Assembly (NCBI GenBank): GCA_025917655.1
Contig: CP084610.1
Location: 124,001-188,000, forward strand
Length of the DNA stretch: 64,000 nt
Reading direction: 5' to 3'
Source: Chlorella sorokiniana
Taxonomy: Eukaryota; Chlorophyta; Trebouxiophyceae; Chlorellales; Chlorellaceae
The notes beneath the pieces were generated by a model. It made no database searches and was not told where the DNA came from. It saw nothing but the letters and a program-made list of their open reading frames with translations. Positions 1 through 21,812 of the stretch are shown here, piece after piece. Made by a program: the position numbers and the translations under genes. Position 1 is the first letter of the stretch. Each line of letters starts with the position of its first letter.

Positions 1-3000
1 AGCCCTGAGTGCACACGGCAGCGCTGCGCTCCTGGCACATCAAGCTGTGTGATGCCGCATTCCGCGGCTCCCATCACTTGAACTCGCCCACTTGTCGCGA
101 GGCGGTTGCAGTGCAGCTCCGGGCCGGCTCCGGCTCCAGTGCCCGCCATCTGCATCCCCATCCACACCACCGCCAGCACCTCATTCACCCCCACGTGTGG
201 TGCTGCAGATCCTCACTCCCGGGTGCACGGTGACGCTCTTTACCGACCCTGGCTTCGCGGAGCTTCTCTGGTGCTCACCGAGAGCACCTTTGACCTTGGA
301 GGGCTGTCGTTCAGCGATGTGACGTCCTCGATCACGGTGGAGTGCAATCCGCCGCCGCCCAACCCCCTCCGCCCGCGCCGCCATCGCCTCGTCCACTCCC
401 GCCTCGCCCGCCGCCGCCAAGGCCCCACCCTCCACCTTCACCCCCACCCAGCCCTCCTCCCCGAGCCCGCCCCCGCCCTCTCCACCGCCGCCCTCTCCAC
501 TGCCGCCCTCTCCTCCGCCGCCCTCTCCACCGCCGCCCTCTCCTCCGCCGCCCTCTCCACCGCCGCCCTCTCCTCCGCCGCCCTCTCCCCCCTCCAAGCC
601 CACCCCCTGCTGTCACCGGCGCCGTGCTGTACAACGGCGTTGAGTACTCGGGCACCTCCGAGGTGTCCCTTGGGCCTGGGGACTACCCTCGCTGCTGGAC
701 GTCGGCATGCCCGACAAGGAAGTGCGGTCTGTGTCCATCCCCACCCCCGGCTGCACCCTCACGCTGTACGAGGAGCTGGATTTCTTGGGGGCACCTTTGT
801 GGTGGCCGCCAACACGATCGACCTGGTCGAAGCAGGCGGCACCGCCTACGCCAGCGCCAAGCTGGCCTGCATCCCCGATCCGGTGCTGATTTTGTACTCA
901 AGCTTCTACTTCAACGGCCAATCTGCCGCGTTTGGCGTGGGCGACGTGAACAACATTGCCGCCGCCAGCGGCTTTCCCGACAACGAGCTGACTTCCCTGC
1001 GGTTCTTACGGCAAAACTGCGAAGCGCGGCTGTTCGACGTCTTGGATTTCGCCACTGAAGGCGAGGGCGACAACCGCATCGTCAGTGCGGACAACTTCGA
1101 CCTGTCGTCATCTGATTTCAACGACCTGGCGTCCTCGATGAGCGTGGCGTGCACCGATCCGCCCGCCGCCACCAACCAGCCGGTGACAATGAGCCTGTCA
1201 GGTGAGGCGGCCTTGCCTGAGGAAGCTGTTTTTGCACCATGAGTACGCTTCTGTTGCCGTTGAACGGGCCTGCGCTCTGGTGCGTGCTGGAGGTTCAGCA
1301 GACCTCCTTTCGTCGCCTTGTTGCTGTCTTGACAGCCCAGAAGGTCTTCCTGGGTGGGGCTCCCGCCCGCGCTGCATCAGGCTCCCCCAGCCTCTGCTCC
1401 ACCCGACCCGCCTTCTCGTTCCCTGCCTGCAGCCTATGACAGCGTTCAGGAAGCCTACATGGACGCCTCGCAGTTCCAGATGTTCAAGGCGGACGACTTC
1501 AAGACGGTGTGTGTCAGGGCTTCGCAGCTTGCATGCCTGGCATCGCTGGTATGCAACACATTAGGAGTCGGCTGATCAGGGCCACCCACCACCCGGGATG
1601 GGGTCACACGATGCACGTGATTGCACAGACGACCCCTCTTTGGTACCCTTCCATCCTCGTTCCGACTAATTCGTTGGCACTCGCAATGCGTGCTCCCCCT
1701 CGCTCGCAGGCCATTGGAAACGTACTGGGCCAGGCTCCTACCACCGTGACCATCACCAGCGTGGAGGACCTTCCCCACAGGGTTTCTATGACCAGCCCAG
1801 CTTCCGCGTGGCCTACCTGGTGGCTACCAGCGACCCTGCCGCCGTTGTGTCGGGCCTGACGGAAGCTGCCTTTGGCGAGTCCCTGGCCACCGAGTTCAGC
1901 GCTGTGGACATCAGCTACGTGTCGTACAGCAGTGAGTGCCGCGCCGCGGAGGGCCGCCTGCGGTGTGGCTGGCTCAGGCTGCTTCAAGCGTGCTTTCGCC
2001 ACCTTTGCATCCCCCACGCACTCCCACGTCGTTCACACCTGCTCCAGCCACATATGCCTTTGGCACCCCATTTATCTGCACATGCGCATACATGACACTT
2101 CCCACCTGCTTGCTCCCGCCACGCACAGTCGGCTTTGGCGACCCGCCCCCACCTACCAGCAAGTGGACATGGTGGTGCAAGGTGAGCGCAGGGTGCTGCT
2201 GCAGCTGGTTGGCGCTTGCAAGCGCCAGCGCACAGGCCCTGCCCGCGCGTGCCGACCTGCACAGTGCAGCATCCCCAAAACCTGTCAGCGTTGCCCTGGC
2301 CCCCGCACCCTGTTCTGCCAACTCACCCGCCTGCGGCGACTGCGCGCGCGTTCCTCTGCAGCGCCCGAGTTTGACTTTTTCAACACCCCGTCTGACTTCA
2401 TGAACTCCTACAGGCGCCCCTTCTTCCAATATGTGAGATGCTGCCGCAGGGTGGATGTAGCAGAGAGAACCAGGGAACTGCGCTTCTGCTGGCGGGTGGG
2501 GCGGCAAAGGGGACCCGGCACCCGTCACTTTACCGCCGTTGTTTTGCACCCATCGGCTTGCAGGCTCTCTGGGTCATCACCGGCACACCTGTCAACTGGG
2601 TGGATGCAACGGCCACTGAAGAGCCGGTGCCGATGGAGTTCCAGGGGCAAGGCGGCAACCCGCCCTACTGGGTGCGCACGCGCGTGTACAGCGCGGATCC
2701 TGCTGCGGTACGCTCCGCAGTGGAGGCAGCTGACGCGGCTGGCACCCTTGCGGAGGGGCTGCTGGCAAAGCCGCAAGTGATCCTGGCGACTGGCTCGGTG
2801 TCCTTCGGCGGCGGCGCCCCGCCCCGCACCGGCGCCGGCTCCGACGCCCGAACCCACTCCCCCGAGCTACCGGCGCCGCCTCCGGCCCCACCACTGCCTC
2901 CGCGGCCACCGCCCCCGCCTCCTGCTCCGCCGGCAATCGAGGGAGCAGGCGGTGATGGAGCGCTGATCACGCTGAGCTGCTCTCCGCCGCAAGAGATTCG

Positions 3001-6000
3001 GGTGCTATCGGTGTACTACGGTGAGCGGCGGTACAGCTTCCACCCAGCGTCCTGCAAGCTTCCTGCACGGAGCTTGGGCACAGCGGCTGCCCGGGCGGCT
3101 CCAACCCACCCACCCCTCACAATGTCCCCCCCCCACACCCCCCAACCCCCACGCCACCCCCTGCCCTGCCTGCAGGCTCCGCCAGCACGCCGGGGTGCAC
3201 CTGCCCGGAAGCTGACACCATCAGCGTTTCAAACACCTGCGACGGGCGCACCACCTGCACCATTCGGGCCTGGCCAGGAGACAACGAGTTCGCATTTTCA
3301 TGGTATCCTCTGCAAGACCCCAGCCAAGCCTACGCGTGCCGCACGGACCCGTGCAGGAACGTGCTGAAGGACGCGTTGGTGCAGTACAGGTGGGGCCCGC
3401 TGCCGCCGCTGCGGCACGGCACCGCCCGCTCAGCTCAGCGCGCCTGCTCTGACAGCCCTGCAAGGACGGTGTGGGTGCCACGTGGTCGGGACGTGCATCC
3501 ACGCCACGCGCAGCGTGCTTCGATCGTCCTTGCTGCTGGCTGCTGCCTTTTCTCCTGCGCCCTGTCTGGCCCTGCCTTTGCCTGCCCCTGGCCCCTTGAC
3601 AAACCGTCTCCCAAAACATCTCAGTGCTCCCCCCACCCACCAACCCACCCACCCACCCTGCCACCCCTCCAAAAACATCAACTGCAGCTGCATTCTGCCC
3701 GGGCAGCCCACGGTGGCTCTTGCTGACCAGTCCACCGCCCAGCTGGCCTGTCCCGATTCTCAGCGCATCTCCGTCGAAAAGGCCACCTACGGTGAGCGTC
3801 GGAGCCGGGGTCGTCCCTTGGAACTGCCTGAGGGCCCATGCTGGCTTCCCAGGCAGTGCGCGCCACGCTGCCGGCTGGGCCAAGCCCAGGCTGAAGGGCG
3901 GGCCTGGGCTTGCATCAAGAGTTGCGCTCAGCACACAAGAGTTGCACCCAACCCCCCGCCACCCCCGCTGCGACACCCCTTGCCTTCATGCAACAGCCAA
4001 GGCTGAAGCCCCAAAGGGCTTTCGCCTATTTGGTCAACCCCCTGTTGCCCCACTCTGCTCCGCGCAGGCTCCTCCGACATTGCGCGATGCTCCAACGCCG
4101 GCGAAGGCTGGTGCACGGAGGAGGGCGCGGCGTCGGTGGCGGAAAAGTGCAACGGCCTCGCCTCCTGCACCGTCATCGCCTTCCCCGCCGACAACCCCGC
4201 CGCAGCCGAATTGTTCCCCTCTGGCGGCGACCCGGGCAACGCCTTCCTCTGCTCGTTCGACCCGTGCAGCTTTGTCCCCAAGGGCGGTACCGTGCAGTAC
4301 AGGTGGGTGCAGCAGTACGGTACAAGCACAGCGAGGTGCCGCGCAAGCTGAACCCAGCTGCGGGCAGGCACAACCCGCTGGCTGGCCGCCCCGTCACTCA
4401 ACCCACTCCCACGCGCCCACCGGTTCCCCTGCTGCAGCTGCGTCGCCCCGCCGCCGCCTGCCAGACGGCGCCGCAGCCTGCTGACCGCGGACCCAGAGGC
4501 AGGCCGCCTTCGGCCAGACAGCGGTGGCGAGCAGGGCGACACATCGCGGGATCCGCAGCAGCAGCAGCAGCAGCAGCAGCGCCTGCGGCCGTCGCTGCAG
4601 CGCTCCTTCGCGCCTGCTGCGCCTGCCCCCGCCCCGGAACGCCCAGGGAGCTCACCCCCTCTGAGCTCAACTCGCTCATGCACGAGTCCTACCGCTCCCA
4701 GGCACAGCAGGCCCGCCGCCGCCGCACCCTGCTGCAGCAGGAGCAAGGGCCCGCGCCCTCGCCTGGGGGGCCCGCCCTCGCCGCCCCCGCCCCCCCCGCC
4801 GCCGCCCATCCTGAGCCAGGAGCAGCTGAGCACGGTGGACAGCACGGGCGGCTCCATCTACGTTGTTACCACCACGGGCCTGGAGTTCAACCAGAGCGCG
4901 GCGGGTGGGTGGTCGGGGCAGGAGGGTGGGGCCCTGCTGCAGGGGCCAGGGCAGCAGCCATGAAGCCCTCCTGCCTGCAGCCCACTCCACGACACACACA
5001 CCCCGCGCCAGCCACTCTCTGGGTTTGCTGGCGCTGCCCATGCTGGGCAGGCGCTGGCCGTTCCCACGCCTGCCAGTGTTGGACGTTTGTTTGTTGCAAA
5101 AGCTGAACCCCAGAGAATGTGCGGGCGTCTCCCTGCCGCCCGGCAAGCACCAACATCCAGCCTGCCTGGTTGCCCTGCTGTCCGGCCCTCCCAACCGCAG
5201 TGGCCACCGTGCTTCCCGAGGCGCTGGCGCGACAGGTTGAGGGCATCATCAACCAGCTGCGCTCGGTGATCAGCATCGGCGGCTCGACGCTGGACAGCCT
5301 GTGGAACACGCTGTTCTGGGTGTGCGTCGGCCTGGCTGGCACGCTGGCGCTGCACGCCGCCGCCCGCGCCCTCATCATCTGGCGGAAGAAGAAGATGAAC
5401 CAGTTCTTCGAGTGGCCGCGGCCCGAGCTGTGGCTCATGTGGTGTGTGCTGCCCATCCTGGCGGCGCAGGGCGCACGTGAGTGGGGGTTCAGGGCGAGGG
5501 GCGGCACATCTGTTTCTTGTTTGTCTCTGCCGCCGCCTCTGAACAGCCCAGTCGCTGCCCACCTTCTTGCGCGGCCGCTCTTTCTAGAAAACAAGCTCCT
5601 CACTGTCACAACAAACCCCTGCAGAGTTCATCGTGGCGGATGGCGCCGGCGCGGTGGCTGCCGGCGTCATTTTCGGCATCCTGCTGCCCTTGGCCCTGCT
5701 GGTGCTTTCTTTCTACCTGGTCATCAAGCACCTCACCATGGTGGTGAGCTGGGGGGCTGGCGCTGCCTGTGTTGGGCATCATTTGTTGGGCTCAAGCTGC
5801 TGTGCTGCGCTGCCTGGGGTGCTCTGGGCTGACGCCATCCCCTGCCATGCACCACGCACCACCGGTACCGCAGATTCCGCTGCGCCGCGCCGCCTACTTC
5901 CTGCCGGACGAGGAAGCCGAGCGGTTCAAGCGGGAACAGCGCCAGCTGGCGGAGGCGTCAGCTGACAGCCCGTCGCCGCCACCAGGGCCTGAGCCCGGCC

Positions 6001-8440
6001 CGGGCTCCAACGCTGCCGCCGCAGCTTCCACAGACAGCCCAGGCCCAGCGGGCGGCGACCCGGCCCTTCCACCAGTGCCGCCGCCGCTGAGCTGCCAGCC
6101 GCTGAGCTGGCACGTGCCAGCGCGGGCGCCGCCTCCGACGCCTCCCGCTCCTCGGGTTCGGGCTCGGCGGCCGGGGCCACTCTCTTGCGGCCGCCCAGGC
6201 GGCCAGTGGGCCGGCAGCAGCGGGGCTGGGTGCGGGCGCGGGCAAGGGCACCCGCCTCGCCCGTACCAAGCGCTGGCTCATGAAGTGGATCTTCGGCCCC
6301 GTGTTTGGCTTCCACCCCTCCAAGCAAGGGGAGTGGGTGCCGCCGGATGGCTACGACGCCAGGTGCGCAGACGTGCTGGCCTGCCGACCGCCGCCGGTTG
6401 AATCGCGACCAGCGCAGGCACAACGGCTGCCGTCAATCTCGATGAGGCTGGTTGGTTGCTGGATGGCCTCTTTTCACTGACAAGTACTGTGCTGCTTCGC
6501 TTGCCCCCGCTGCAGCTTTGTGGCCAAGTACGGAGTGCTGTTTGAAACCGCGAGGGGGCCTGACGTCGAGTACCGCCCGGGCACCTGGGAGGTGGACCCC
6601 GCACCGGCAGGGTGGACCGCGGGGAGCTGGTCCCGCTGGCCAGCACACGAGCGCTGCGGGCCCGGGAGGTGGCACGGGTGAGCTGGAGCAGACGTCGTGC
6701 TTTCTTTCGTCATAGTTTGGCAGCGGAAGCATGCCGGCATGTCTGAGCTTGAACATAGAGAATTGCACCCGCTCGTGCTGAACTTGCTTCTTCCCTCTCC
6801 TGCAGACGCTGGGCGTCACGGTGCAGCTGACCAAGCTGGTGCTCTTTGCCCAGCTGGCCGCCGTGTTTGGCGCCTCTGAGGCCGTCAGCCCGCTGTGGCA
6901 GGTCGTGCCGCTGCTGGTGCTCATTGTCGTGTACTGGGCCTACTTCCGCTTTTTTGTGCCCATGGCCTCCTTTGAGGACATGGTTACAGAGGTGAGGCCG
7001 CGATGAGGATGAAACTCAATTCATTCATCCCCTTTTTCTGTGCTTGCTTGTGTTGCGTGCTCGTGTGGCGCCGCTGGTGTGGCGGCAATCATCCTCCTAA
7101 GTATAGGGCGGGGAGAGGGAACAGCAGGAAAGCTCCAGCCCGCACCGTCTGCCCTGCAGCCTCCACCCACCGCCCTTGCTTCCATCACTGCGCAGATCCT
7201 GGGCTGCGCCTGCGACCTGGGCACCTTTGTGTGCGGCGTGATCGTGGCCGTTGTGCCCGTCACCAGCTATCAAATCATGTGAGCTTTCCAGCCAGCACCG
7301 GTTCCACACACCAGTGCGGGAGGCTGGAAGGCTGCTGAGGGGGCCGCCTATGCATGGCGGTCGTGCAGCCCCGCACAGCGCAAACTCCGTCTTCTGTTGG
7401 CATGGAGCGCCTGGTCACTCCCCTCAAGCCCCTCAGGGCCAGCTGTGCTGCCTCCGCCGCCATGCCCATGAAAGCATCTTCCGCGTGCCTCCCGTCGCCT
7501 GCAGCAACCGGACCGGCTTGGCCATGCTGGTCTTCCAAACCGTCAACATGGTTGCCACCATAATGCCCGGGGTGGTGACGTTTTTCGGTGCTGGGCTGCC
7601 AGTGGGTCTGGCGCCGCTTCCACCCGCCAGCCGACGAGAAGTTTGCTGCGGTGGTGCGGGCGGTGATGTCTCGCGAGCCCACCATCCTGGCCCGCAAGTA
7701 CGCCGACCGCTGGCTGCTGCGGGTGCACGGCCGCGGGCTGAACGAGCGCGCGCTGTGCCACCACGAAAAGGCGCAGCAGCTGCTGCCCTTCGACCTGCGC
7801 GCGCTCAGGTGAGGCGGCTGCCCGGCGGCGCCGCTGTTTGCGAGCCGCTGGCCTCTCGTGCCCCCTGACTGCCCAGAGGTTGCTATCTGCCCACACGCGG
7901 TGCCCACAGAGCACCCCCCACCTGCTGTCAGCCCTCTGCACCTTGTGTTTGTAAAGTGAATAAACCGTCTTCTCACGTTGGCACCGTGCACTGCTCCCCT
8001 CTCGCAGGCCCCTGGTGCGCCTGCGGGCCTTTGGCGGACGGGAGCAGACGGCCGCGGCTGCAGCCGCCGCGGTTGCCGAGACCGCCGCAGCCGGCGGCGG
8101 CGGCGACGAGGGCGGCATGCTGTCCCGCCTGTCGCAGCGCTTGCGCAGCCCGGCTGGCGCAGCCCCCGCCGCCCGCGCCTCTCCCCTCTTGCCGGTCTCC
8201 CGCGCTCAAAGCCTGGACCCAGCCGACAGCCTGTCCCCCACCCCGCGCCCAGCCAGCCGCCTGCCCCCACCCCGGGTCGCGGCCAGCAGGGCGGGTCCGC
8301 GGTCCAGGCCGCCACCCTCTGCGGGGCCGCCCCCGGCCAGCCCGGGCACCTTTCCCACCCGCGCCGACTCGCCGGCGGCTGGCGGCAGCGCGGGGCCCTC
8401 CAGGGCAGGCAGCCTGCCGCCGCCATCTCCCCAAACCTGA
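1..8440 (+). CDS. Multi-exon membrane protein 1: beta/gamma-crystallin and SUEL lectin ectodomain on a TRP-like membrane base (5' partial)
   Basis: The gene enters from the left edge and stops at 8440. Its first visible part (about 120-1200) holds two to three beta/gamma-crystallin-like repeats (for example GVEYSGTSEVSLGPGDYP and LTLYEELDFLG) separated by a Pro/Ser-rich stretch at 350-600. Exons at about 1433-3020 carry two related SEA-like segments (VTITSVEDLP; WVITGTPVNW). Exons at 2950-3390 and 3670-4300 encode two SUEL galactose-binding lectin-type domains, each with the YYG/TYG turn, spaced cysteines, a DPC motif and a final VQYR. A Q8 run (4555-4580) and a Pro-rich linker follow. The membrane half has hydrophobic segments at 5290-5370, 5430-5470, 5640-5730, 6830-6980, 7196-7278 and 7504-7600, with an FVAKYGVLFE motif near 6520. 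The last exon (8009-8440) is a low-complexity cytoplasmic tail. The TRP-like assignment rests on the general pattern of algal homologues and is tentative. Several exons change frame at homopolymers. A surface receptor or channel role is inferred. Confidence 0.72.
6521..7278 (+). repeat. Arm 1 of an inverted gene duplication
   Basis: This segment, from the FVAKYGVLFE exon to the VPVTSYQIM exon, matches the reverse complement of 10249-10990. The intron between the two exons near 6680-6804 aligns almost base for base with its counterpart, including a shared stretch reading CAGACGTCGTGCTTTCTTTC. Intron conservation implies recent duplication or gene conversion. A further matching block is 7620-7812 against about 9790-9970. 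Confidence 0.85.
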
Positions 8441-9474
8441 CCAGTGACTGACCCCCCCCACCTTGCGCCAGCTCAAGCCTCAAGCCTTGCATTGTGTTTT
8501 TGTTCCGCGCACCTTGCTGACTGCTTGCTGCAGACTCCTTTTCACTCGGGCTCTGGCGAGCCTGGCTCCTCCGTTCCTTTGCGAGGACAAACGCACGCCT
8601 CAATGCATGCCCACCCCACTGCCCGCCTCTGCACATCCGAACTGTTGCCGCTCAGTTTCCCAGTCTGCTCCCCGTGCATCAAGCTCCCTTCCAAACCGCA
8701 ATTCTGCATGCCCCCGTCCCGTGGCAGACCTGCCCTCAGCATCCAAGTAGCGAAACCATGCCGCTCGCCGGCCCCTGCCTCCACGTTGTTGCCACGAGCA
8801 GGGGCCCCGGGGTGTGCTTGCATCATCGCATATTTCTTTGACTCGTTTCCTATTTCGAAGGCCGTTACCTTCATCTGACAGCTGTGACCCAAGACAAACC
8901 TTGCACCGGCAAGCAGGCTGGAGTTGGCTGGGTGGCCACCGCAAGGCATGCTGGGCCATTATGGCAAGAATTGCAAACAGGGTCCCTGGATGCAGCATGA
9001 GCAGGGTACCACCGGTGTGGCAGGCAACAATCGTGGCATCAATGCAGCGCTGCCGGAACCCCTATCAGACAGGTCGTTCGAATGGGGTGTTGGCTTGCAC
9101 GCAGGCAAAAAAGAGCAGGCAACAGAAAAGGTGTCAGCAACAATTCATTGAAGAGAAGTCAAACAAGGCACAGTTGAAAGGACGCGGCTCACGGAAAGGA
9201 CTGAAAAGAACAGAAAGTAATGCCGACGCCACTTTGAGACATCGGCATCTCGCAACAGTGAAGCCTTAAGAGGGTAAGCAGGAAGCGAGCTCTCCCGCAG
9301 GGGTGCATGGCAGCGCTTCTCCGTGCCCACGTGGAATGGACAGGGCAGCGTCCTGCACAGGACACCCGCTCGACAGGTAGGGGACTGGAAGAAAACTGTG
9401 GATGGGAAAACACGGGAAAATCGGGCCAGCCTGGAAAACGATGGCCTAGCTGCGTGACCAACCTGCCGTCACAG
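8441..9474. other. Convergent 3' intergenic region between the two membrane-protein genes
   Basis: This stretch lies between the stop of membrane protein 1 and the stop of its inverted paralogue. I see no conserved coding sequence, tRNA or repeat. It should hold both 3' UTRs. No clear TGTAA polyadenylation signal was found on either strand. Confidence 0.6.
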
Positions 9475-12400
9475 CTAGCAGGAGCTGCTGGGCGGGCTGG
9501 CAGCGCCAGGAGGGTGCTGCTGTGCAGCCTGGCTGGCATCTGTGGCGGCGGCGGCAGCAGCATCCGCGTCGGGCTGCAGGGACGCAGCCGTCGATGCGGC
9601 CCGGCGCAGTTCGCGCCGCGCCTTGCTGGCTCTCAGGCGGCCAGACATGGAAGCTAGCAGGCCGGGCCGGCCCTGCCCCTGGGCCTGAGCTGCTGCAGCG
9701 GTGGCCGCAACAGCCTCTTGGGCGGCGTCTGTGGCCGCCTGGCGGCGGTTGCCGCCGCCAAAGGCGCGCATGCGGGTGAGGGTGGGCCGCAGCGCCCGCA
9801 GGTCGAAGGGCAGCAGCTGCTGCGCCTTTCGTGGTGGCACAGCGCGCGCTCGTTCAGCCCGCGGCCGTGCACCCGCAGCAGCCAGCGGTCGGCGTACTTG
9901 CGGCCCAAGATGCTTTGGTTCTGGGACATCACCGCCCGCACCACCGCCGCAAAGCGGTCTGCGGGGGCGGGAAGAACTTGTGCCACGCCCACCGCCAGGC
10001 CATCGCCAGCAGCTCAATCACCGGTGGGCAGAAGTTGAGGAGGAGCGAGGCGGTCTGGAACACGAGCATGGCGATGCCGCAGTTGTTGCTGCAACGCAGG
10101 CAAGAGACACGGAGGGCGAGAGTAAACAGGGGTCAGGCTCGTGGCCGCTCCCAGCCGGCAGAGACGAGTGCTGCAGCATGTCCTGTCAACTCTTGTGCAG
10201 CGCAGCGGCAGCAGGCGGACGACGCAGATGGGCAGTACATGATGCTCACATTGTGATGTACCGCGTGTTGGGCGTCACCGCCACAATGATACCGCACACA
10301 AAGGTGCCCAGGTCGCAGGCGCAGCCCAGGATCTGCGGCGGGGTGGTGGGGGTGGTGGGGGAGTTGGGGGGTTCGGGGGAGGTGCAGCGCGGGGCTGGTT
10401 TGGCGGGCCTGCCAGGCATCGGGCGCATTGAGAGGCGCAAAACACGGCTCTATGGAACGGAGCAGGTGCAGCAAAAGAACAGTCGTATCGCCTGTGCACC
10501 CTGCCCGCCTCACCTCCGCCGCCATGTCGCAAAACGAAGCCATGGGCACAAAGAGGCGCACATAGGCCCAGTAGACGACAATGAGCACCAGCAGCGGCAC
10601 GACCTGCCACAGCGGGCTGATGGCCTCAGAGGCGCCAAACACGGCGGCCAGCTGGGCAAAGAGCACCAGCTTGGTCAGCTGCACCGTCACGCCCAGCGTC
10701 TGCGGGAGAGGAAAGAAGCGATTTCAGCATAAGCGGGTGCAGTTTTCTTTGTTCAGCTTAGACATGCTGCTATGCCTCCGCTGCCAAACTATGACGAAAG
10801 AAAGCACGACGTCTGTTCCACCTCACCCGTGCCACCTCCCGGGCCCGCAGCGCTCGTGTGCTGGCCAGCGGGACCAGCTCCCCGCGGTCCACCCTGCCGG
10901 TGCGGGGTCCACCTCCCAGGTGCCCGGGCGGTACTCGACTTCCGGGCCGCGGGACGTCTCGAACAGCACGCCGTACTTGGCCACAAAGCTGCAGCCAGAG
11001 TGGGACAGCGAGGGGGTGAACCCTGAAAATCGTTCTTGCCGTGACGCGATGACGCAAGGCTGCTCATGCTGTAGTGGCCACACTCAGCAACGGGGCTGTG
11101 CATGCACGGGGGTGCCGGGCGCAAGTCGCAGGATGAGCGGCTCCAAGGCGGGGCGGGCGAGCTTGGCTGTGGAGGGGGCCCACCTGGCGCTGAATCCGTC
11201 CGGCGGGGCCCACTCCCCCTGCAGGGAAGGATCGTAGCCGAAGAGCGGCCGCACAACGAAGCGGTGCAGCCAGCGCTGCAGCCGCTGCTGGAAGGGCTCG
11301 GCCGGCGGAGGGGGCCGCCGTCGGCTGCGGCGGCTCCGGCTGCGGCTGCCTCCGCCGAAGCGCTGCTCACCTGGCGGGTGAACCAGCCGGCCAAGCTGGC
11401 ACCGAGCGGCGCTCGCTTCGAAGCAGAAGCAGCGGGGCTGCGGGCTTTGCGTGGCGGGTTCAGAAGCGCGGCCCGGCCGTCGAGCCCGACCCCGAGGAAC
11501 GGGAGGCGTCGGAGGCGGCGCCCGCGCTGCTCCTCGCCAGCTCAGCAGCTGCCGGCTGCGCCGGCTCGGCGGCTGCAGGCTCGGCGCCAGCCTTGCCGGC
11601 GGCATCGCTGGGAAGCGGCACGGGTATGGCTGTGCTGCTGAGGGTGCGCCCGCTGCTGATGCGCTGCAGGTGGTGCTGGCCCTGCTGGCGGCGCCGCTCG
11701 GCGGCAGCGACTGGCACGTAGTAGGCGCTGCTCCGCAGCCCCGACTGCAAGGACGTGAAATCGAACCCACGAACCTCAAGAGGGCAGGGAACGTTCATGA
11801 GAGTGCGCATGGTGGTTGCAGGAAAAGGCTCCGAACGCAAATCACAAAAGGCGTGATGGCGGCTCAGCAGCGTCCGAGCGAGTGCGGGCAGCAAGGACTA
11901 CGGACGGCGCCAGCCCCCCAGCTCACCACCAAGGTGAGGTGCTTGATGACCAGGTAGAAAGCAAGCGCCAGCAGGGCCGTCGGCAGCAGGATGCCGAACA
12001 CGACGCCGGCAGCCACCGCGCCACCGTCGTCGGCCGCAAGGCACACTGCAAAGCGGGGCAGGACAAGCAGTTCTTTCATGCAGGCTTGCGAGCAGGCCCA
12101 GACACACGCTGTATCCGACGTGCGCCGAACCCGACAGATTCAAAGCATTGCCGCTGAAGCAAGTGTGCTGAGAGGAGCAGGTGGTTGCAGCGCATTCCAG
12201 CGAGCCCCCACCTGCGCCCTGCGCCGCCAGGATGGGCAGCACACACCACATGAGCCACAGCTCGGGCGCGGCCACTCGAAGAACTGGCGCATGCGCCAGC
12301 CGCGCCAGATGATGAGGGCGCGGGCGGCGGCGTGCAGCGCCAGCGTGGCCGCCAGGCCGACGGAAACCCAGAACAGAGTGTTCCAAAGTGAGGCCAGCGA

Positions 12401-15400
12401 ATCACCACCCTGCGCAGTGGCAGGCGGAGCGGGTTGACTGGTTCACGTCACAGTCGCGTAAGCAGTTGCAACCACGCTCGCAAGCGTCTGCCGCACAAGG
12501 GCGCTGCGTTGATGCTTTGGCCGGAGCATCAGCGGCAGCAGGCCTGCAGCAGCGTCAGCTGCTGCAGGCGGCCGCGCAGCCAACCCAAGGCCCGGCCGCA
12601 GCTGCTCCCGCTCCCTGCTCCCGCTGAGGCGGCGCCCAGCGCAAGCAGAAGCACACGGAGTTAAGCGAGCAGGAAGGGTGCAGCAGAAAGGGAGGCGCAC
12701 CGAGATGCCGAGGGACGCCTCCAAAGCCGACACCATGCCTTGCACCTGCCGCGCCACGCCGTCGGGCAGCACCGTGCCTGCGCTCAGTGGGGGCGTGTGT
12801 GTGTGTGTGTATTGGTGGGGAGGGGAGGAGGGGAGGAGCGAGCGTATGTGTGTGTGTCGTGAGGAGGGGGAGGGGGAAGGTGTGTGTGTGTCGCGAGGAG
12901 GGGTGGGGAGGAGGTGTGTGTGTGTGTGTGTGTGTGGTGCTGTGGGGGGAGAGAGGGGCCACACAGCAGAGCGGCGGCAGCAGCGGCAGTGCAGCAGCAG
13001 CGGTGGGGGAAAACAGAAAGAACGGGGAACGAGCTGCTGGCTGGGGCATCGGCCAGCATCAGGCCAAACGGAGGCAGCGTTCCCCCGGAGTTCCTCTGCT
13101 GTGGCTGCCGGCTGCCAACTGTGCACAGCACAAGCACATCATCAAAGAGTAAACACCCTGCCTTGAGCCATGCAGCGAGTGGCAGCGCACCTGCGACGCT
13201 GTCGTTCAGCTGCAGGCCGGTGCTGGTCACCACATACAGGGAGCCTCCGGCGCCGTCCAGGCTGTCCATGCCTGCCGCAGCGCCTGCTCCCCCGGCAGCC
13301 GGCGACGGCGCGGAGGCTGTTGCCGCAGCCTGCGCAAGTGCGCGGCCTCCAGCCTGCTGCCTCACAGCGGCCGAGCGGTACGCTGCGTGCATCAGCGAGT
13401 TGAGTTCCGTGCTGCTCAGCCGCCGCCCTCGGCCGCCGACAAGCTGGCGTGGTGCGACGGAAGCATCCGCGGGCAGGGGCTGCCGAGGCCGCGCAGTCGG
13501 CGCTGGTGCGAGGGTTGCTGCGGCGCCAGCTGCGCCCCTGGCGGCGTGCCGCCGAGCGCCTCAGTCGCTTGCCGAAGCATCCGGGCAGGAGCTGGGCCCT
13601 GCCCAACCGCCAACCCCTGATTGGCCTTTGAGGCGGTTGGAGGGGGTGGTTTTGGTTTGGGAGGCGGCGGGCGCGGCTTGGGCTTGGGCGGCGGCGGGCG
13701 GGGCTTTGGCTTGGGCGGCGGAGGGCGTGGCTTGGGCTTGGGCGGAGGAGGGCGTGGCTTGGGGCGGGGCAAAGGCGGCCGAGAGCCCTCGACGGCGGCG
13801 TTGCCGCCGCTTGCCACTGCATCAGCTCCCTGCAAGCAGCGGCACATGAGGGGCATGAAGCCCTGTCAGCAGCAGCAGCAGTCAGGATGCAGCTGCAGCA
13901 AAGCTGCCTGCCAGCCTTGCTGTGGGCTGAGAGTGCACAGCAACAGGGCGGGGGGTGCTTGCAACTGCAAAAGAGGCAGGGCAGGCCGCCTCAACGACCT
14001 CCCAGCTGCCAGCTCACCACGCAAGTGCAAGTGCCGGCCATGCAGGCGCAGCCGCCGCGCGGGCAGTCGCCGCAGCCGGTGCAGACATCCAGCTGCTGCG
14101 GGGCGGCAGGGGGCTGGGGAGGCACGTCGGCGGGCGGGCAGCAGCAAGCAAGGAGGGAGACAGGACGGAGGGATGGAGGGGGAGGGGGCGCGGCGGGCGG
14201 TTGGGTGGTTGGGGTGTGTGTGGGGGGTCCAGCGCAAAACTGGTTTGTTCGTGGCACTCACGCTGTCGCCCCCACACTGCTCGGGGTGGAGAGAGCCGCT
14301 AGCGAGAGGGAGGCTGCGGCCGCAAGCAGCGGCTTGTCCGGCGGAGGCGCTGAGCGGCGGCGGCGGCGGCAAAGGAGGCGGCGCCGGCGCTGCAGGCCAC
14401 AATCAGGGTTGCCGCCGAGTTGCCAAAGCCCAGGGCTGCCAGGTCGGGCACGTCTTGCGCCAGCGCCAGCTGCTGCCCGTTGTTGCGCACAAGGGTGGCG
14501 GTGCAGCCTGCCTGCACCCGCAGGCTCTTCAGGGTGCCAGAGGGGAAGCCGAGCGAGGGCAGCGGGGTGTGCTCGCCGACTGCAAAGCCAATGGAAGCGC
14601 CGCCGTAGTTCACGTCTTTAAAAAGGATCACGGCAGCGACGGGCGTGCCCTGCACTGCCGGCGGAGGTGGGCTGGGGCTGGGGCTGGGGCTGGGGGTGGC
14701 GGTGATGGTTGAGGGCTGGGCGGTGGCGGCAGTGGGTTGGGGCTGGGCGGCGGTGGGCTGGGCGGCGGTGGGGTGTCGGGAGGAGGAAAGGGTGGAGAAG
14801 GGCTGGGTGGCGGTGGGCTGGGCGGCGGTGGGGTGGGGGAGGAGGAAAGGGAGGAGGGGGCTGGGAGGGAGCGGGCTGGGTGGCAGAGAGGGCGGCGGCG
14901 GAAGCTCTGAAGGGGGTACTCATTGCTGGGTGGCTGAGGACTGGGGGCTCCAGCGCTGGAGCATATGGCGGGGTGGCTGCTGCGAAGCTGGCGGCTCAGT
15001 GCTCGGCGGCGGCGGCTGAGCCTCCACACTCGGGCTGGGAGGCGGTGGCAGCAACTCCAGGGCTACCGGCTGCGGCGGCTCGGGGGTGGGTGACGACGGA
15101 GAGGGCAGGGGCAGGCTGGGGGTGGAGGAGAGGGAGGGGGCGGGCTTGGGGGTGGCGGAGAGGGCGGGGGCGGGCTTGACGGTGGCGGGCTGGGAGGGGC
15201 CGGGCTGGGTGGCGGCGTGTTGGGCGCCACTCCACAGCTGACCACCATGCTCATGGCGAGGTCGTTGAATTCATAGCTGCCCAACTCCGAAACGTTGGTT
15301 GTGAGCGTGCGCGAGGCACCTTCAAAGTTGGGTCCGCTGTACAACACCACGGTGCAGCCGTCCCGCAGCTGTACCGCCGAAAGAATGTCGTCTGGGAAGC

Positions 15401-16600
15401 CAGCATCTGACAGGCTGGGGTATGAACCGGGCGGAAACTGTACCCCCAGCCCTTCGTAACCGTAGTGCTCGTACAGCGTGACGGCGGGGGCGGGCGGCGG
15501 CGAGGGCGGAGGCGGGCTGGGTGGGGGCGGGCTGGGTGGGGGCGGGCTGGGAGGTGGAAGAGAGGGGGTGATAGGCTTGGTGGTGGCAGAGAGGGAGGGG
15601 GCGGGCTGGGTGGTGGCGGAGAGGGTGGAGGCGGGCTGGGTGAGGGCGGCATCAAGGATGGCAGGGGGAGGAAGGGCGGAGGCGAGCAGGGAGAGAGCGG
15701 GCTGGGAGGCGGAGGGCTGCTCAATTGTGGCGACGGCGGGGGTGGGAGAGCTCCGGGTATCAACAGCGGCGACGGCGGAACGGCGGCGGGCTGGGGCGGC
15801 ATGGTTGTCGTTGGGAGGGGCGGCGGGGGCAACAGGATTGTCGCTGGGAAGGGCGGCGGAGGCGGCAGGAGGGGAGGGGTGGTGGTGGGCTGGGAGGCGC
15901 CGCTGAGCGGCAGGAGGGCTGAGAGGGGGAAGGCTGGGGGCTGGCAGCGCGGGGGGGTCCATCCAGCCCGGGGTTGCGGCGAGGGTGGAGGCGGAGAGGG
16001 CGGCAGCGGCGGAAGAGGCGCTGGCGACGGCGGCGGGACCCTCGGTCGGTGAGGGCACCGGCTGCGGCTGCCCTTCCAGCGGCGGGCTGGGAGGCTGCGG
16101 TTGAACAGCCAGCGGCGAGCTGGGCGGCTGCGGTTGAACAGCCAGCGGCGGGCTTGGCGGCTGCGGCTGCCCAGCCAGCGGCGGGCTGGGCGGCGGGGCA
16201 GCAGGGCCCCGCCCGCCAACGGGGGCGATGGCGCATCGTCGGCGGCGGCGGGGCTCAGAGCTGCGTATGGGATGGGGGCAGAGGATCTGCTGGAGAGCAA
16301 CCAAGCCAGGGCGCTGGCGCCCGCAGGGGCACCCCACCAGCTGCTGCAGCTGCTGCTGGCCCCGCCCGAAAAACACAATGCGCAAGCATGCGGCTGCTGG
16401 CAACTCTTGGGTGGGGCAGCAGGGCGCGCTTGGTGGGCAGGGAGAGAGGAAGAGGAACAGATGCGAACGCGCAACTATGTTGCTGCAAGCGGTTTGCAGC
16501 TGATGCCGGGCACCCCGGGCAGGGAACTGTGCATGCCTGCCGGCACACATCACTGCACATGCAGAGAAGTGGCTGCCCAGCGCCGGCAGCGGCCATGCAG
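9475..16600 (-). CDS. Membrane protein 2: crystallin-type ectodomain, Pro-rich linkers and TRP-like membrane base (inverted paralogue of membrane protein 1)
   Basis: Read from 16600 down to the stop at 9475. A Pro-rich exon (about 16400-15100) contains PPLAVQPQPPSPP-type repeats and then a beta/gamma-crystallin domain at 15480-15230 (YGYEGLGVQFPPGSYPSL). After a PPPSPPP linker comes a second crystallin-like domain at 14650-14310 (VNYGGASIGFAVGEH). A small Cys cluster follows at 14090-14020 (CTGCGDCPRGGCACMAGTC), then a KPKPRPPPP repeat. ELNSLMHAAYRS and GGSLYVVTSTGL near 13390-13200 match gene 1's ELNSLMHESYRS and GGSIYVVTTTGL. The membrane half (12.4-9.8 kb) is collinear with gene 1: LASLWNTLFWVSVGLA, FVAKYGVLFE, TLGVTVQLTKLVLFAQLAAV, ILGCACDLGTFVCG and KYADRWLLRVHGRGLNE. 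It lacks gene 1's lectin domains. It is probably the C-terminal part of one gene whose N-terminus is the 16632-21812 module. No signal peptide is seen at its own upstream end. Confidence 0.72.
10249..10990 (-). repeat. Arm 2 of an inverted gene duplication
   Basis: This is the minus-strand counterpart of 6521-7278. Exons for FVAKYGVLFE, TLGVTVQLTKLVLF and ILGCACDLGTFVCG and the intron between the first two keep high identity to the plus-strand copy. The next introns (7000-7195 against 10520-10332) are less alike, so the similarity is patchy. Confidence 0.85.
12787..12940. repeat. GT/GTGA-rich simple repeat in an intron of membrane protein 2
   Basis: Runs of GT dinucleotides (for example 12794-12810 and 12914-12937) alternate with GGGAGG blocks. 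On the coding strand this is an AC/CCTCC-rich intron stretch just downstream of the VLPDGVARQVQG exon. Confidence 0.85.
13650..13770 (-). repeat. 27-bp tandem repeat encoding KPKPRPPPP
   Basis: About four copies of a 27-base unit encode a KPKPRPPPP-type nine-residue repeat. It forms a basic, proline-rich linker before the ELNSLMHAAYRS segment of membrane protein 2. Such linkers are common in chlorophyte extracellular-matrix and surface proteins. Confidence 0.85.
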
Positions 16601-16631
16601 AGGGCACAGGCGGCGGCGGCAGGCGGCGGCG

Positions 16632-19600
16632 CTACGAGGAGCAGCGCCCAGGGGAGACGGCGCGGGGGCGGGGGCGTTGGCGTGTCTTGGGACGGGGTGG
16701 GTGAGAGGGTGGGAGAGGGGGTGGGTGAAGGGGTGGGTGAAGGGGTGGGCGAGGACAAGCTTGGCGGCGGGGAGGGCGGGGCGGTGCCGGGGATGGGGTG
16801 GGCGAAGGGGTGGGGGACGGGGTGGGGGAGGGAGGGCCAGGGCTGGCAGGGCTGGGGGTCGGCGACGGTTCAGGGCTGGCAGGGCTGGGGCTGGGAGAGG
16901 GTTCAGGGCTGGCAGGGCTGGGGGTCGGCGACGGTTCAGGGCTGGCAGGGCTGGGGCTGGGAGAGGGTTCAGGGCTGGCAGGGCTGGAGGAAGGGCTGGG
17001 GGTGGGGTCGGGGCCGGGCGAGGGGGAGGCCGGGATGGGGCTGAGGCCGGGGCTCGGAGCAGGTGTAGCTGCCGGGCTGGGCACATTTTGCAAGGGGGAG
17101 GCCAGGAGACACCTCTGTGCTGGGGGACAGCCCGGGAGACAGCTGCGGGCTGGGAAACGGCTCCGGGCTGAACTCCGGGCTGGGCTCCGGGCTGGGCTCA
17201 GGGCTGGGCGGCAGCGCTGGGCTGAGGGGGGCGGGAGACCAGTAGCCGCCGGCTCGGGCGGCAGAGTGCTGTCCGGCGGCTGCGGGGGCCCAGCGCCGCC
17301 CTCCGCCTCTGGTGCATCGCCGCTGGCATCGGCAGCGGGGCTGTCCACGGACTGGCTGGCAGCCTCCTGAGACCCTGCAGGCCGGGAGGAAAGCAGGGAA
17401 GGAAGCAAGAAAGCAGCTTGGGCGGTGCTTCAACATGAGCGTGAGGCAGGGCAGCGAGCCTCCTGCCACAAGACCGCCCTCGCTACAAGCAGGCCTAGGC
17501 GGCGGTGAAGCCATGGGCTGGGCGCTACCTCGGGGGATGCGCAGCGCTGCCGCACTGTCCGGGAATCTGTGAGGGCAAGCAGCCCCAGCCGCAACCCACC
17601 CGTGAACGGAGAGGAGGCCAGGCCGCCCGCCCCCTCCTCCTCTGGCAGGCTGAACTGCACCACGCGCCCCCGCAAGCACCAGCACGCCGACAGGCGCAGG
17701 CGCAAAGCTCACGTCTCCTGCGGGACAGCAGGGCAGTACTGGTGGGTTGTGGTGTGGGTGGGGGGTGGGTGGGTGGGTGGGCTGTGAGGGTTGGGGCGGA
17801 TGCCAGCGTCGCGAGCGCAGCTGTTGCCTGACAGCGGGCAAGCAGCAGGCGGCCCTAGGCGGGCAAGCCGGCCAGCCCGCAAGGCTCGCAGCGGGGTTGC
17901 GGGCACCGCGAACGCCAGGCAGCAGGCTGCGCGGCGGCGCACCGCTGAGCAGGGCGGACAGCGCTGCTCGGTCCGCCGCCTCCTTCTGAGACTCGCCGCC
18001 GTCGCCGCCGCTGCTTGACCCCGGGCGGCTGCAGGCAACATGCCGGGAGGTGCAGAAGCTGGGTTGGAAGGTGGTGCAGCAGGGGGCCTGGCGGGGAGGT
18101 GGGCGCCACGGGCAGCATGCGGCGGTCGGGAGCACAGCAGAGGAAGCGGCGAGTGAAAAGCCAGTGGCGTCACCGAGGCAGGACAGATAGCAGATGGATA
18201 ACTGGCATTTGGTCGATGGGCATCGACAGAGGAGCATCAAACGGCACACGCAGCAAAGCGGGGCGGCTGTGGGCTCACGGCCAGTCCATCTTGATGAAGG
18301 CGAGCTGCGCGGCAGCTGCCCGGAAGTTGGCGGGGAGCGACGGCACGCTGAGCTGGCCGGCCTGCAGGCGCAGCACGCTCAGCAGGCTCAGCATGAGAAA
18401 GCGTGTGCGCTGCCGACGTCGAGGCGCTGGGTCGGCGGCGGAGGGCCTCTCCCAAACCAAGCCAACCCCACAAGGGTCCACACGCAGGAAGCAGGGCGAG
18501 TCTGCATGCAAAGCGCTGCGTCGGCCACGCACCAGGTACACCGTCTGTACTCCGCCTGTCATCTGTCCCAGAGCATTGCCGGTGGGGACTGTGGCAGGGG
18601 GTGGGCGGGTGGTGCAAGTAAGTGCGTGGTGCAAGGTGGAAGGCAAGCGTATGGGCGTGAGCACACAGGGGGTTTGGGTGGGCGGAGCCGGCAGCCAGCG
18701 GCGGCCAAGGCACGTCGAGCAAGGCGCAGGGCGGCGGCGGCTGCAACAGGCAGGCAGAAGGACGAGGTGGAGCAGCAGCGGCAGCCAGCGCTGTTGGCAG
18801 GGCGGCGGCGGCTCACAGGCGGCGCCCGGCACCAGGCAGTTCACTGCCAGTGAGCCCGCCACAAAAGCCAGGCTGGACGAAGCAAACGTGTTGCTGCAAC
18901 GAGGGGGCGGGGGGTGGGGGTGGGGGTGGGGGGCAATGTGTACGTCAAGCGTAAGCAGGACGTATGGGGAGGAGGGGGAGGAGGGGGAGGGAGGAGGAAG
19001 CACGGTGACACGTCATGTGCAAGCAGACAGCGGTGGGGTGGGGGTGGGGTGGCGTATCCTTGCGGGCAGCTCGCCGCGGGAGCTTGGCAGGAGTCTGCCA
19101 GGCTGGCACAGGCATGGGAGCCAGGTTGCGGCCAGCCAGCAATTCCAGGCTGCAGGGAGCACAGCAGCAGCGGTGCGACGCAGCAGCAGTGGCGGCCTGC
19201 CAACTCACGCCATGGCAGCGCCCAGCGCCGCTGCGCCGCCGCTGGGGGCAGGTAGACGATGGTGAAGCTGGCGGCTGCGAGCAGCAGAGGCAGAAGCAGA
19301 AACAACGAGGCTTGAAGTTGCCCGGGAGGGGGTGCGGGGCGGGCCGCGCGCCACCCTGGCGCACCATGGCAGGCGGATACAGCACCACAACCAAGTGCAA
19401 GCAGCGGCTGCAGCCCAGGAGCCGCCGCTCACCGAGGTTTGGCTGGCCCAGCACGTCGGTGGTCACCCCGCCGGGATCTCCACTGCAGGAAACAAAGGAG
19501 TTGGGGGTGGTGGTGAGAAGGGGTGGCGGCGCAGCATTTCAGCGCGGGGGCCGGTTGTGCTGACGGAGAGAGCAGGGCAGCAAGTGCGCAAGCGGGAAGC

Positions 19601-21812
19601 GGCACGGCTGCTGCAGCAGGGCAGAAGTGCAGCGTCGAGCAGTTGCATTGCAAGGGAACGTGCAACCACTCTACAGGCACGTGAGAAGGGCAGCCAGGGG
19701 AGACGAGGGGGTGGGGCAGCGGCGGACTCACTTGTCACTACCGTGGGCTCTGCTGGGTTGCTGACGTTGCCGATCACAAATAGCTGGCCCCCAAGCACGT
19801 CGTACAGAACATCCATCCTGCGGGCAACAGGAACAGACAACAAAGCAAACCGTGAGGACATGTGGGAAGTGAGGACACGCATCGGTGCCTCGCGATGGGC
19901 CACAGGCCCTGGATCGACGAGAGGGATCGGGAGCAGATGCTGGCAGGCGGCACCGACGGGCGGCACCCACCCCAGGCTGTGACAGATACTCAACAATTTA
20001 TTCAACTGGGTATACAGGACAACTGGGTATGCAGGAATCAGAGTGGGAAGGTGGTGGTTGCCCACTGGAGCTTGCCCACCACAGCCCCCCCCCACACACA
20101 CCTGCCCATGCCGCTGACTGTGAAGAGGCGCAGCGGGTTGAGCGTCAGCACGCTCGCCAAAGGAGGCGTGCAGCGTCAGCCGCTGCTGGTCTGTAGTGCC
20201 GTACTTCAGCCCCACCGCTTGGATGGTGGGCGCCGGCGCCTGCGTGTCCCACACCGCCACCAGGCTGTTGCTGCCTGCCGTGGCCTCCCCGCACGGTCTG
20301 CAGGCGCAGGGAAGGAGAGGGGGTAGCGGAGGCAGGGTGACGAGTGTGCTGCTGTCTCAACTGCCTTGCAGGCGTGGTGGCAAGGGGGACCCAGGGGTGG
20401 CGACGGACGCCCCCAGAGAGCAGGACTGATGTTTCCCAGACCTGCTGGCAGCGACCCTTCCTCTTGTCCCCCTTCCCCTTGCAGTATCGCCGGACCAGCT
20501 GCACCTCTGCAGCCCCTCACCCCCACCACCCCCACCCTCGCAACACCCCACACTCACCACCCCGCCCCCTTCCCCACCCAGCCAGGCCACCCCAATCCTG
20601 GATGGGTGAGCTGAAGCAGTGCTGGCCGCAGTGCCGAGGGTGTGCAGCAGCGGTGCAGTGCCCCTCACCTGCCAGTTTCCGGGCGGTACACGCAGCGTGC
20701 ACGGCGCGTTAGGCTCGCTGATCGCCACCTCAGCCTCAAAGACCTGAAACAGCCCCGCCCGGTATGGCGGCCGCACGCGCAGCACCGCGCAGCCATCCGC
20801 TTGAATATCTGACGCCGTCAGGGTGCCCACCAGCGCATTCACGCGCACCTGCGGCAGCAGCGGGATGGAGACGGTTCAAGAGGAGGGGCGCAAGCGAGCG
20901 CGAGTGCGCACCAGCCTGCCACCTGGGTTGGTGGCGGCTGCAGCAACTGCAGGCGCCAGCCTGGCACACAGGGTGCAGCTTGGGCAGCGCCGTCGCCCGG
21001 GCCTGCCAGCGGGGTGACCACTCCTCTTCCCATGGCCAGCAGGATGCAGCAGAAAACACAAAACGCACCTCAACCAGCAGCGTCTGGATGCGCGTGGCGA
21101 CCACGGTGGTGGAGGCCAGGCAGCCGCTCAGGTCCAGCAAGGGTCGGGCGCCGCCGCTGGCGCCGGGCGTGTAGCCATCAGCGTAGCGGATGCAGCGCGT
21201 GGTGTTGACCCCTGCTGCATCGATGATGCGCCCTGAGCTGGCGTTCACCGCCACGGCCTGGCTGCCGGGGCGACGGCCAGGATCACCGGGACACTGCGCG
21301 TCGCCGCCGCCGCGCCGCCGGCGCTCGAGGCGGAAGCATCTCCAGCAACAGCGCCGCTGCGGCTGCCGTCCTGCGCCTGCAGCAGGCGGCGCAGGTGGGC
21401 TGGCGGGGGCACGCCGCCGGGGGCGATGCCGCCGGTGCTGGGCAGGCTGCGGGCATGGCTGGGATGCGGCGGCGGCAGCAACACCTGCACGGGTCACATC
21501 GGGTGTTGGCAGCTGTGCGGCAACGACCGTCAGCAGCCGCGCTGCTGGACTGCATCCTGACCACCTTTACAAACTGGCAGGCTGTTTCCTGGCACGGGCC
21601 AGCTGACAAACGGCGCAGCGAAGCCCCCGCTCGCCCTGCACGCCACCGCCTGCGACGCTGCCGTCGTCAGCAGGGGCAAAGGCCGCAGCGGGCCGACGTA
21701 ACGGTGTGCGCACCTGAACCGCCTCCACTGAGGCCTCCTGATGGGTTACCGAAGCCCGCGGGGCCAGCAGGGCGATGAGCACCCACAGCAGCAGTGGGGA
21801 GGCTTCAGACAT
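16632..21812 (-). CDS. Signal peptide and N-terminal ectodomain module, probably the start of membrane protein 2
   Basis: ATG at 21812-21810 opens a clear signal peptide ([20 protein letters not shown]), spliced near 21714. Later exons encode [19 protein letters not shown] and a Cys-bearing beta-rich stretch to about 21070. Further exons lie at 20848-20670, 20296-20103, 19817-19730 ([21 protein letters not shown], which resembles an LVIVD beta-propeller motif), 19483-19435, 19300-19205, 18897-18840 and 18590-18275 ([20 protein letters not shown]). The 17.7-17.5 kb exon carries [20 protein letters not shown]. The module ends in a long SPASPEPSP repeat exon (17372 to about 16650) that reaches a stop at 16632 if unspliced. 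Whether it splices onward into the crystallin exons at 16.4 kb or is a separate secreted protein cannot be settled by eye. I favour one gene because the downstream part has no signal peptide. One frame change near 21270 looks like an indel. Confidence 0.55.
16854..16986 (-). repeat. 33-bp tandem repeat with 66-bp higher-order period
   Basis: Two 33-base variants alternate to give an exact 66-base period (starts at 16854 and 16920). On the minus strand they encode alternating [11 protein letters not shown] and [11 protein letters not shown] eleven-residue repeats. These lie in the Pro/Ser-rich stalk of the ectodomain module. Confidence 0.9.

Follow-up and report, generated by a model that had tools for sequence, protein, structure and literature searches.

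The 64,000-nucleotide stretch of Chlorella sorokiniana DNA analyzed here (the window; positions 124001-188000 of contig CP084610.1, hereafter C9) opens inside a predicted gene, called gene 1, in which beta/gamma-crystallin domains, two SUEL (rhamnose-binding lectin, RBL) domains and a multi-pass membrane part appear to be joined. The component domains are of known kinds; their combination and the membrane base appear to be new. Chances are about even that the product is a very large, wall-facing, calcium-dependent multi-pass receptor. The assembly spans 38.8 Mb in 15 contigs; GC content is ~67%, and 35 chlorophyll a/b-binding matches at E (expectation value) up to 1e-5 mark it as that of a photosynthetic eukaryote. 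The three frames were read by eye, exons were joined at GT-AG, and the joined sequences were searched against Pfam. A first-pass annotation of the same DNA had set crystallin-like repeats, SEA-like segments, an algal Pro-Ser stalk and two SUEL domains on a TRP-like membrane base, in a gene starting within the window. The crystallin, SUEL, stalk and multi-pass assignments and the stop codon stand, as does, by predicted splicing, the union of crystallins, SUEL domains and multi-pass half in one gene; the SEA and TRP labels and the position of the start do not.

Once spliced, the SUEL pair scores 46.2 bits with PF02140 (curated cut-off 31.4 bits), and none of ten reversed or shuffled controls matches either PF02140 or the crystallin profile PF00030. 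Single SUEL exons of gene 1 give 14.9 bits or no match, and the assignment therefore depends on splicing. The exons 2564-3020, 3176-3389, 3688-3791, 4068-4302 and 4438-4639 yield, by predicted splicing, a stop-free frame of 404 codons running through both domains; the other two entry frames over the same five exons contain five stops each. SUEL1 and SUEL2 are interrupted at the same spot, after YG in phase 1, and close at the same phase-2 intron (QY^SC). With a phase-2 intron on either side, SUEL2 forms a symmetric unit such as a tandem exon duplication would give. The nearest solved proteins are CSL3 (expectation value, E, 0.00059) and a latrophilin-like protein (E 0.0032).

The curated cut-off of PF00030 is 25 bits. 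In joined form, the gene 1 crystallin pair lying mostly upstream of the window and ending at 354 scores 42.3 bits, the pair at 612-1164 29.0 bits. Single exon pieces of gene 1 stay below the cut-off (13.2 and 11.7 bits, or no match), and this assignment therefore depends both on splicing and on crossing one-base frame jumps. The crystallin of copy 2, a neighboring paralog, scores 36.4 bits; its contiguous exon (15234-15482, minus strand), with 33.9 bits alone, is the sole crystallin exon piece to pass the cut-off unjoined. Myxococcus protein S is the nearest solved protein (E 5.8e-12). All 11 crystallin matches listed genome-wide fall inside three C9 loci. In the exon-wise scan with PF00030 copy 2 only is listed; gene 1 is missed there, as in the exon-wise PF02140 scan, in our reading because of introns and frame jumps. 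The calcium motif of microbial-type crystallins, given as N/D-N/D-X-X-S/T-S in PMC3551895, occurs in strict form six times, spread over four of the nine crystallin-type domains; 371 residues of gene 1 hold four such motifs, a number reached in none of 10000 shuffles. Calcium binding by these domains is thus plausible, and a role of calcium in the protein is conjectural. For domains of this type PMC3551895 cites Ca2+ binding in the range 4-100 uM.

The membrane half (5182-7808) features seven hydrophobic segments, defined by a mean of 1.2 or more over 19 residues and counted in five hand-spliced homologs of this genome. All five carry the seven segments, segments 4 and 5 abutting in the row from contig C1, the shortest, and align with common motifs such as KYGxLFE. 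Two weaker, moderately hydrophobic stretches precede the stalk, so that nine passes are possible. A signal peptide and an outside N terminus bearing extracellular modules would fit either seven or nine passes, with an inner C terminus. No Pfam channel or receptor family matches the membrane half, searched as five aligned rows and as joined and contiguous pieces. PF06011 (TRP-like) is matched by none of the five membrane rows, of four exact N-terminal pieces, or of two joined forms. An exon-wise genome scan with PF06011 also returned no match, but the positive control of that scan was unmatched as well. A weak TRP match (E 0.0082) was discounted, as it came from a composite query with letters foreign to the genome, the exact sequences giving none; the TRP label was dropped. 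DUF6251 is weakly matched by two of the five rows (best E 0.001), rows 1, 2 and 4 singly giving no match. A membrane profile found nothing in the PDB at E up to 10, and no relative turned up when the membrane alignment was used to scan viral and prokaryote contigs. The module is therefore called unclassified.

A genome search with the membrane part hits three C9 loci (gene 1 and its close paralogs copy 0 and copy 2, which flank it) and, more distantly, loci on C8 and C1; signal-peptide-like starts were found at four loci. Ratios of nonsynonymous to synonymous change (dN/dS) in membrane pieces of the three copy pairs are ~0.40, 0.43 and 0.34 (256 codons). Crystallin-type domains reside in both flanking paralogs. 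The second one of copy 2 scores 13.4 bits, under the PF00030 cut-off; that of copy 0 scores 12.3 bits, also under it, in one search and is unmatched in another, and is 55% identical to the second domain of copy 2 and similar (E 9e-13) to the first, accepted one. SUEL was found in neither copy 0 nor copy 2, and the four matches obtained by searching the genome with the SUEL pair all fall in gene 1. The presence of SUEL in one of three close paralogs fits the independent assembly suggested by the first-pass annotation.

Four other SUEL loci, one over the cut-off, were found in the genome with PF02140. They share with gene 1 a Pro-rich stretch near the SUEL domain, and differ in that no membrane part was noticed in the 3.1 kb read and two have a carbohydrate-active partner. 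The SUEL at C3:3847262 adjoins a pectate-lyase-like domain (PF12708, 51.1 bits, cut-off 27), and that at C10:834267 is followed by a domain of the chitosanase family (GH46, 55.3 bits, cut-off 27). At C2:3362746 the adjoining PF12708 match (22.0 bits) is under the cut-off of 27; the C7 locus resembles by eye that on C3, but its neighbor piece has no Pfam match. Carbohydrate-active neighbors over the cut-off at two of four loci are therefore a pointer to wall glycans.

Gene 1 is predicted to span C9:111935-132440, a stop codon at window 8438-8440 being consistent with its 3' end. Its beginning seems to lie ~12 kb upstream of the window. At C9:111935, 12,065 bases ahead of the window, there is a signal-peptide-like start, and more crystallin and stalk sequence lies in between. 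A region at contig 116.6-118k is beta-propeller-like by eye and has no Pfam match. Features within the window are listed in Table 1. The SEA label given earlier to module A was dropped, as the SEA profile matched none of two joined, two rough upstream and one contiguous pieces. The linker of gene 1 contains SELNSLMHESY and GGSIYVVTTTGLEFN, similar forms of which occur in both paralogs. In copy 2 a small Cys-rich stretch (13994-14257, minus strand) sits between the crystallin-type domains and the membrane half, at approximately the position held by SUEL in gene 1. In copy 0 (C9 ~98.0-107k) about 8 kb of repeat lie ahead of the crystallin-type domain. The predicted gene 1 intron 7809-8007 is apparently absent from the paralogs at the same place.

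Table 1. Predicted features of gene 1 and copy 2, in window coordinates
Feature	Position	Strand	Remarks
Beta/gamma-crystallin domain, second half	209..354	+	first half upstream (contig ~123.8-123.94k); frame jump near 250
Pro/Ser-rich stalk	355..605	+	15-bp repeat at 473-588
Two beta/gamma-crystallin domains	612..1164	+	frame jumps near 690, 790; second domain with calcium motifs DNELTS and NDLASS
Module A ("SEA-like" in the first-pass annotation)	1183..1931	+	no Pfam match; introns 1202-1432, 1507-1709; one frame jump, near 1780
Module B	2150..2812	+	resembles module A by eye; SEA profile unmatched; intron 2433-2563
SUEL domain 1	2945..3691	+	introns 3021-3175 (phase 1, YG^S), 3390-3687 (phase 2, QY^SC)
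SUEL domain 2	3692..4443	+	introns 3792-4067, 4303-4437, positions as in SUEL1; phase-2 intron on each side
Juxtamembrane linker	4444..4935	+	frame jumps near 4640, 4790; no Pfam match
Membrane exon, hydrophobic segments 1-2	5182..5476	+	
Membrane exon, hydrophobic segment 3	5625..5743	+	
Long loop	5874..6362	+	low complexity in part; frame jumps
Loop exon with KYGxLFE (K or R first)	6516..6677	+	5/5 homologs; one frame jump common to three C9 copies
Membrane exon, hydrophobic segments 4-5	6806..6991	+	
Membrane exon, hydrophobic segment 6	7196..7278	+	
Membrane exon, segment 7 and conserved basic tail	7505..7808	+	frame jump near 7590
C-terminal tail and stop codon	8008..8440	+	gene 1
Copy 2, tail-to-tail paralog	9475..21812 (ends approximate)	-	same membrane half; signal-peptide-like start 21812
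Copy 2, weaker crystallin-type domain	14380-14622	-	
Copy 2, crystallin	15234-15482	-	

The protein encoded by gene 1 would consist of a signal peptide and N-terminal region, Pro/Ser-rich stalks spanning the wall, crystallin arrays, further modules, the two SUEL domains, a membrane module of seven segments and, last, a cytoplasmic tail. Its place at the cell surface, its ligand, the part played by calcium and the signaling are inferred. In this reading Ca2+ would stiffen the crystallin array, the membrane-near SUEL pair would attach to a partner protein or to material of the wall, and either strain or binding might be relayed to the membrane module. More tentatively, the module may represent an undescribed seven- to nine-pass family, made up of the five loci and endowed with interchangeable ectodomains, in which the C9 lineage would have gained Ca2+-binding crystallins, and one copy SUEL, by exon-bounded shuffling; the resulting wall or calcium sensor would be unrelated to animal adhesion G-protein-coupled receptors (GPCRs) and polycystins.

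Several observations weigh against a calcium-dependent receptor of this kind. The gene model rests on splicing predicted from the genome sequence; 14 complete introns of 128-298 bp were placed, with GT-AG as the chosen criterion, so that GT-AG borders are no independent proof. The strict calcium motif is missing from five of the nine crystallin-type domains, and the duplicated crystallins, with dN/dS ~0.72 over 155 codons, are under weak constraint. The membrane module matches nothing known and could serve a receptor or a channel. In the SUEL pair the first Cys is absent from both domains, the Arg65 of YGR is replaced by Ser (YGS) in both, and SUEL2 carries Asp at the site of a Glu held necessary, according to the alignment with solved proteins; in SUEL1 a Glu is present, of uncertain placement, and the site is ambiguous. 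PMC2430599 describes Arg65 as conserved and buried in RBL domains, and reports that latrophilin-1 lost most or all of its binding when the Glu adjoining the first Cys, or Lys120, was substituted. DPC is present in both gene 1 domains, as is the loop-2 Lys corresponding to Lys120, which is found in six of six aligned rows, four of them rough hand splices. Sugar binding, and with it the sugar sensing suggested by the first-pass annotation, is thus doubtful. The authors of PMC2430599 argue that RBL domains on receptors take non-sugar ligands; with this argument, and with Lys retained but the first Cys and Arg65 gone and Asp in place of Glu, a wall or protein ligand is favored over simple sugar sensing.

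The integrity of the gene may be questioned too. Frame jumps with no room for an intron occur in gene 1 near 250, 690, 790, 1780, 4640, 4790 and 7590, in the loop before 6362 and in the KYG exon. Jumps are found in all three C9 copies, and that in the KYG exon is common to them, the C8 homolog being in a single frame through that place; this speaks against a working receptor, and could mean that the cluster is decaying and that the three copies are pseudogenes; sequence similarity among them reaches into part of one intron, so that the copying was recent. Decay is quite improbable, however: the jumps near 790, 4790 and 7590 coincide with homopolymer runs (others with short runs or none), and where the copies differ in membrane pieces, slightly more than half of the changes are at third codon positions. 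As a control, an HSP70 gene (C3:1270900-1271110) shows two frame jumps, both at G runs, the latter by eye inside what we take to be the conserved phosphate-binding motif, although among 51 HSP70 matches only one of 41 neighboring pairs shows a jump. This suggests indel errors in the assembly, not necessarily frequent ones, and makes assembly error a likelier source of the jumps than decay. It is very improbable that two or more separate genes were read as one. TGTAA was considered as a polyadenylation signal. Its only plus-strand copy in window 1-10000 is at 7950, within the final predicted intron (7809-8007), none being found between 8441 and 10000, and as evidence for a gene end it was set aside as uninformative. 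Separate genes are at odds with the 404-codon spliced frame through the SUEL pair, with the short gaps between parts lying on the same strand in the region read, and with copy 0, where the crystallin-type domain and a juxtamembrane linker motif, similar to one following SUEL2 in gene 1, share one open frame.

Other readings concern the membrane module. In line with the TRP-like base and surface channel of the first-pass annotation, it may form a polycystin- or TRP-like cation channel with a giant ectodomain, which would open upon wall strain or ligand binding. The multi-pass base, the large ectodomain and the conserved KYGxLFE loop would suit a channel, as would nine passes, should the two moderately hydrophobic stretches count; the loop may also resemble that of fungal TRP-like proteins. 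Given that neither PF06011 nor another channel family matches the membrane modules, N-terminal pieces or joined forms, and that the PDB yields nothing, a channel is somewhat unlikely. An adhesion-GPCR-like seven-pass receptor, with the latrophilin plan reached independently, would account for the seven segments conserved in all homologs and for SUEL in the ectodomain. It is distinctly unlikely, as 7tm, GPS and GAIN are unmatched in the membrane rows or linker pieces searched, and segments 3 and 4 are separated by a loop of 63-132 residues, even in rows shortened there.

Several known systems can be compared with gene 1. Fungal TRP-like (Flc) proteins, which we assume to share with it a signal peptide and a multi-pass part, belong to PF06011, a profile not matched by the gene 1 genome sequence. 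Latrophilins (ADGRL adhesion GPCRs) are likewise seven-pass proteins with SUEL in the ectodomain, but GPS/GAIN, olfactomedin and 7tm are unmatched in the pieces of gene 1 searched, and gene 1 has crystallins, Pro/Ser stalks and two membrane-near SUEL domains. Microbial crystallins (Myxococcus protein S, Clostrillin, vibrillin) feature the same family, canonical calcium motif and tandem domains, whereas those of gene 1 belong to a predicted membrane protein that also has stalks and SUEL. The polycystin-1-like PKD1L2, as described in PMC2430599, has a SUEL domain on a multi-pass protein, as does gene 1, but PKD, REJ, PLAT and PKD_channel are unmatched in the gene 1 pieces searched. According to PMC4053784, 11 SUEL proteins occur in Acanthamoeba, and roughly half of them also contain EGF domains. 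Among the papers listed in searches of open-licence PMC text (8 of 52 for one search), none dealt with the combination of crystallin, SUEL and multi-pass part.

Should the receptor reading hold true, the alga would have reached the animal-type plan of a lectin-bearing multi-pass receptor on an unrelated base, with crystallins as calcium-set spacers, and gene 1 would be a concrete candidate for the sensing of the wall or of external calcium in walled green algae.

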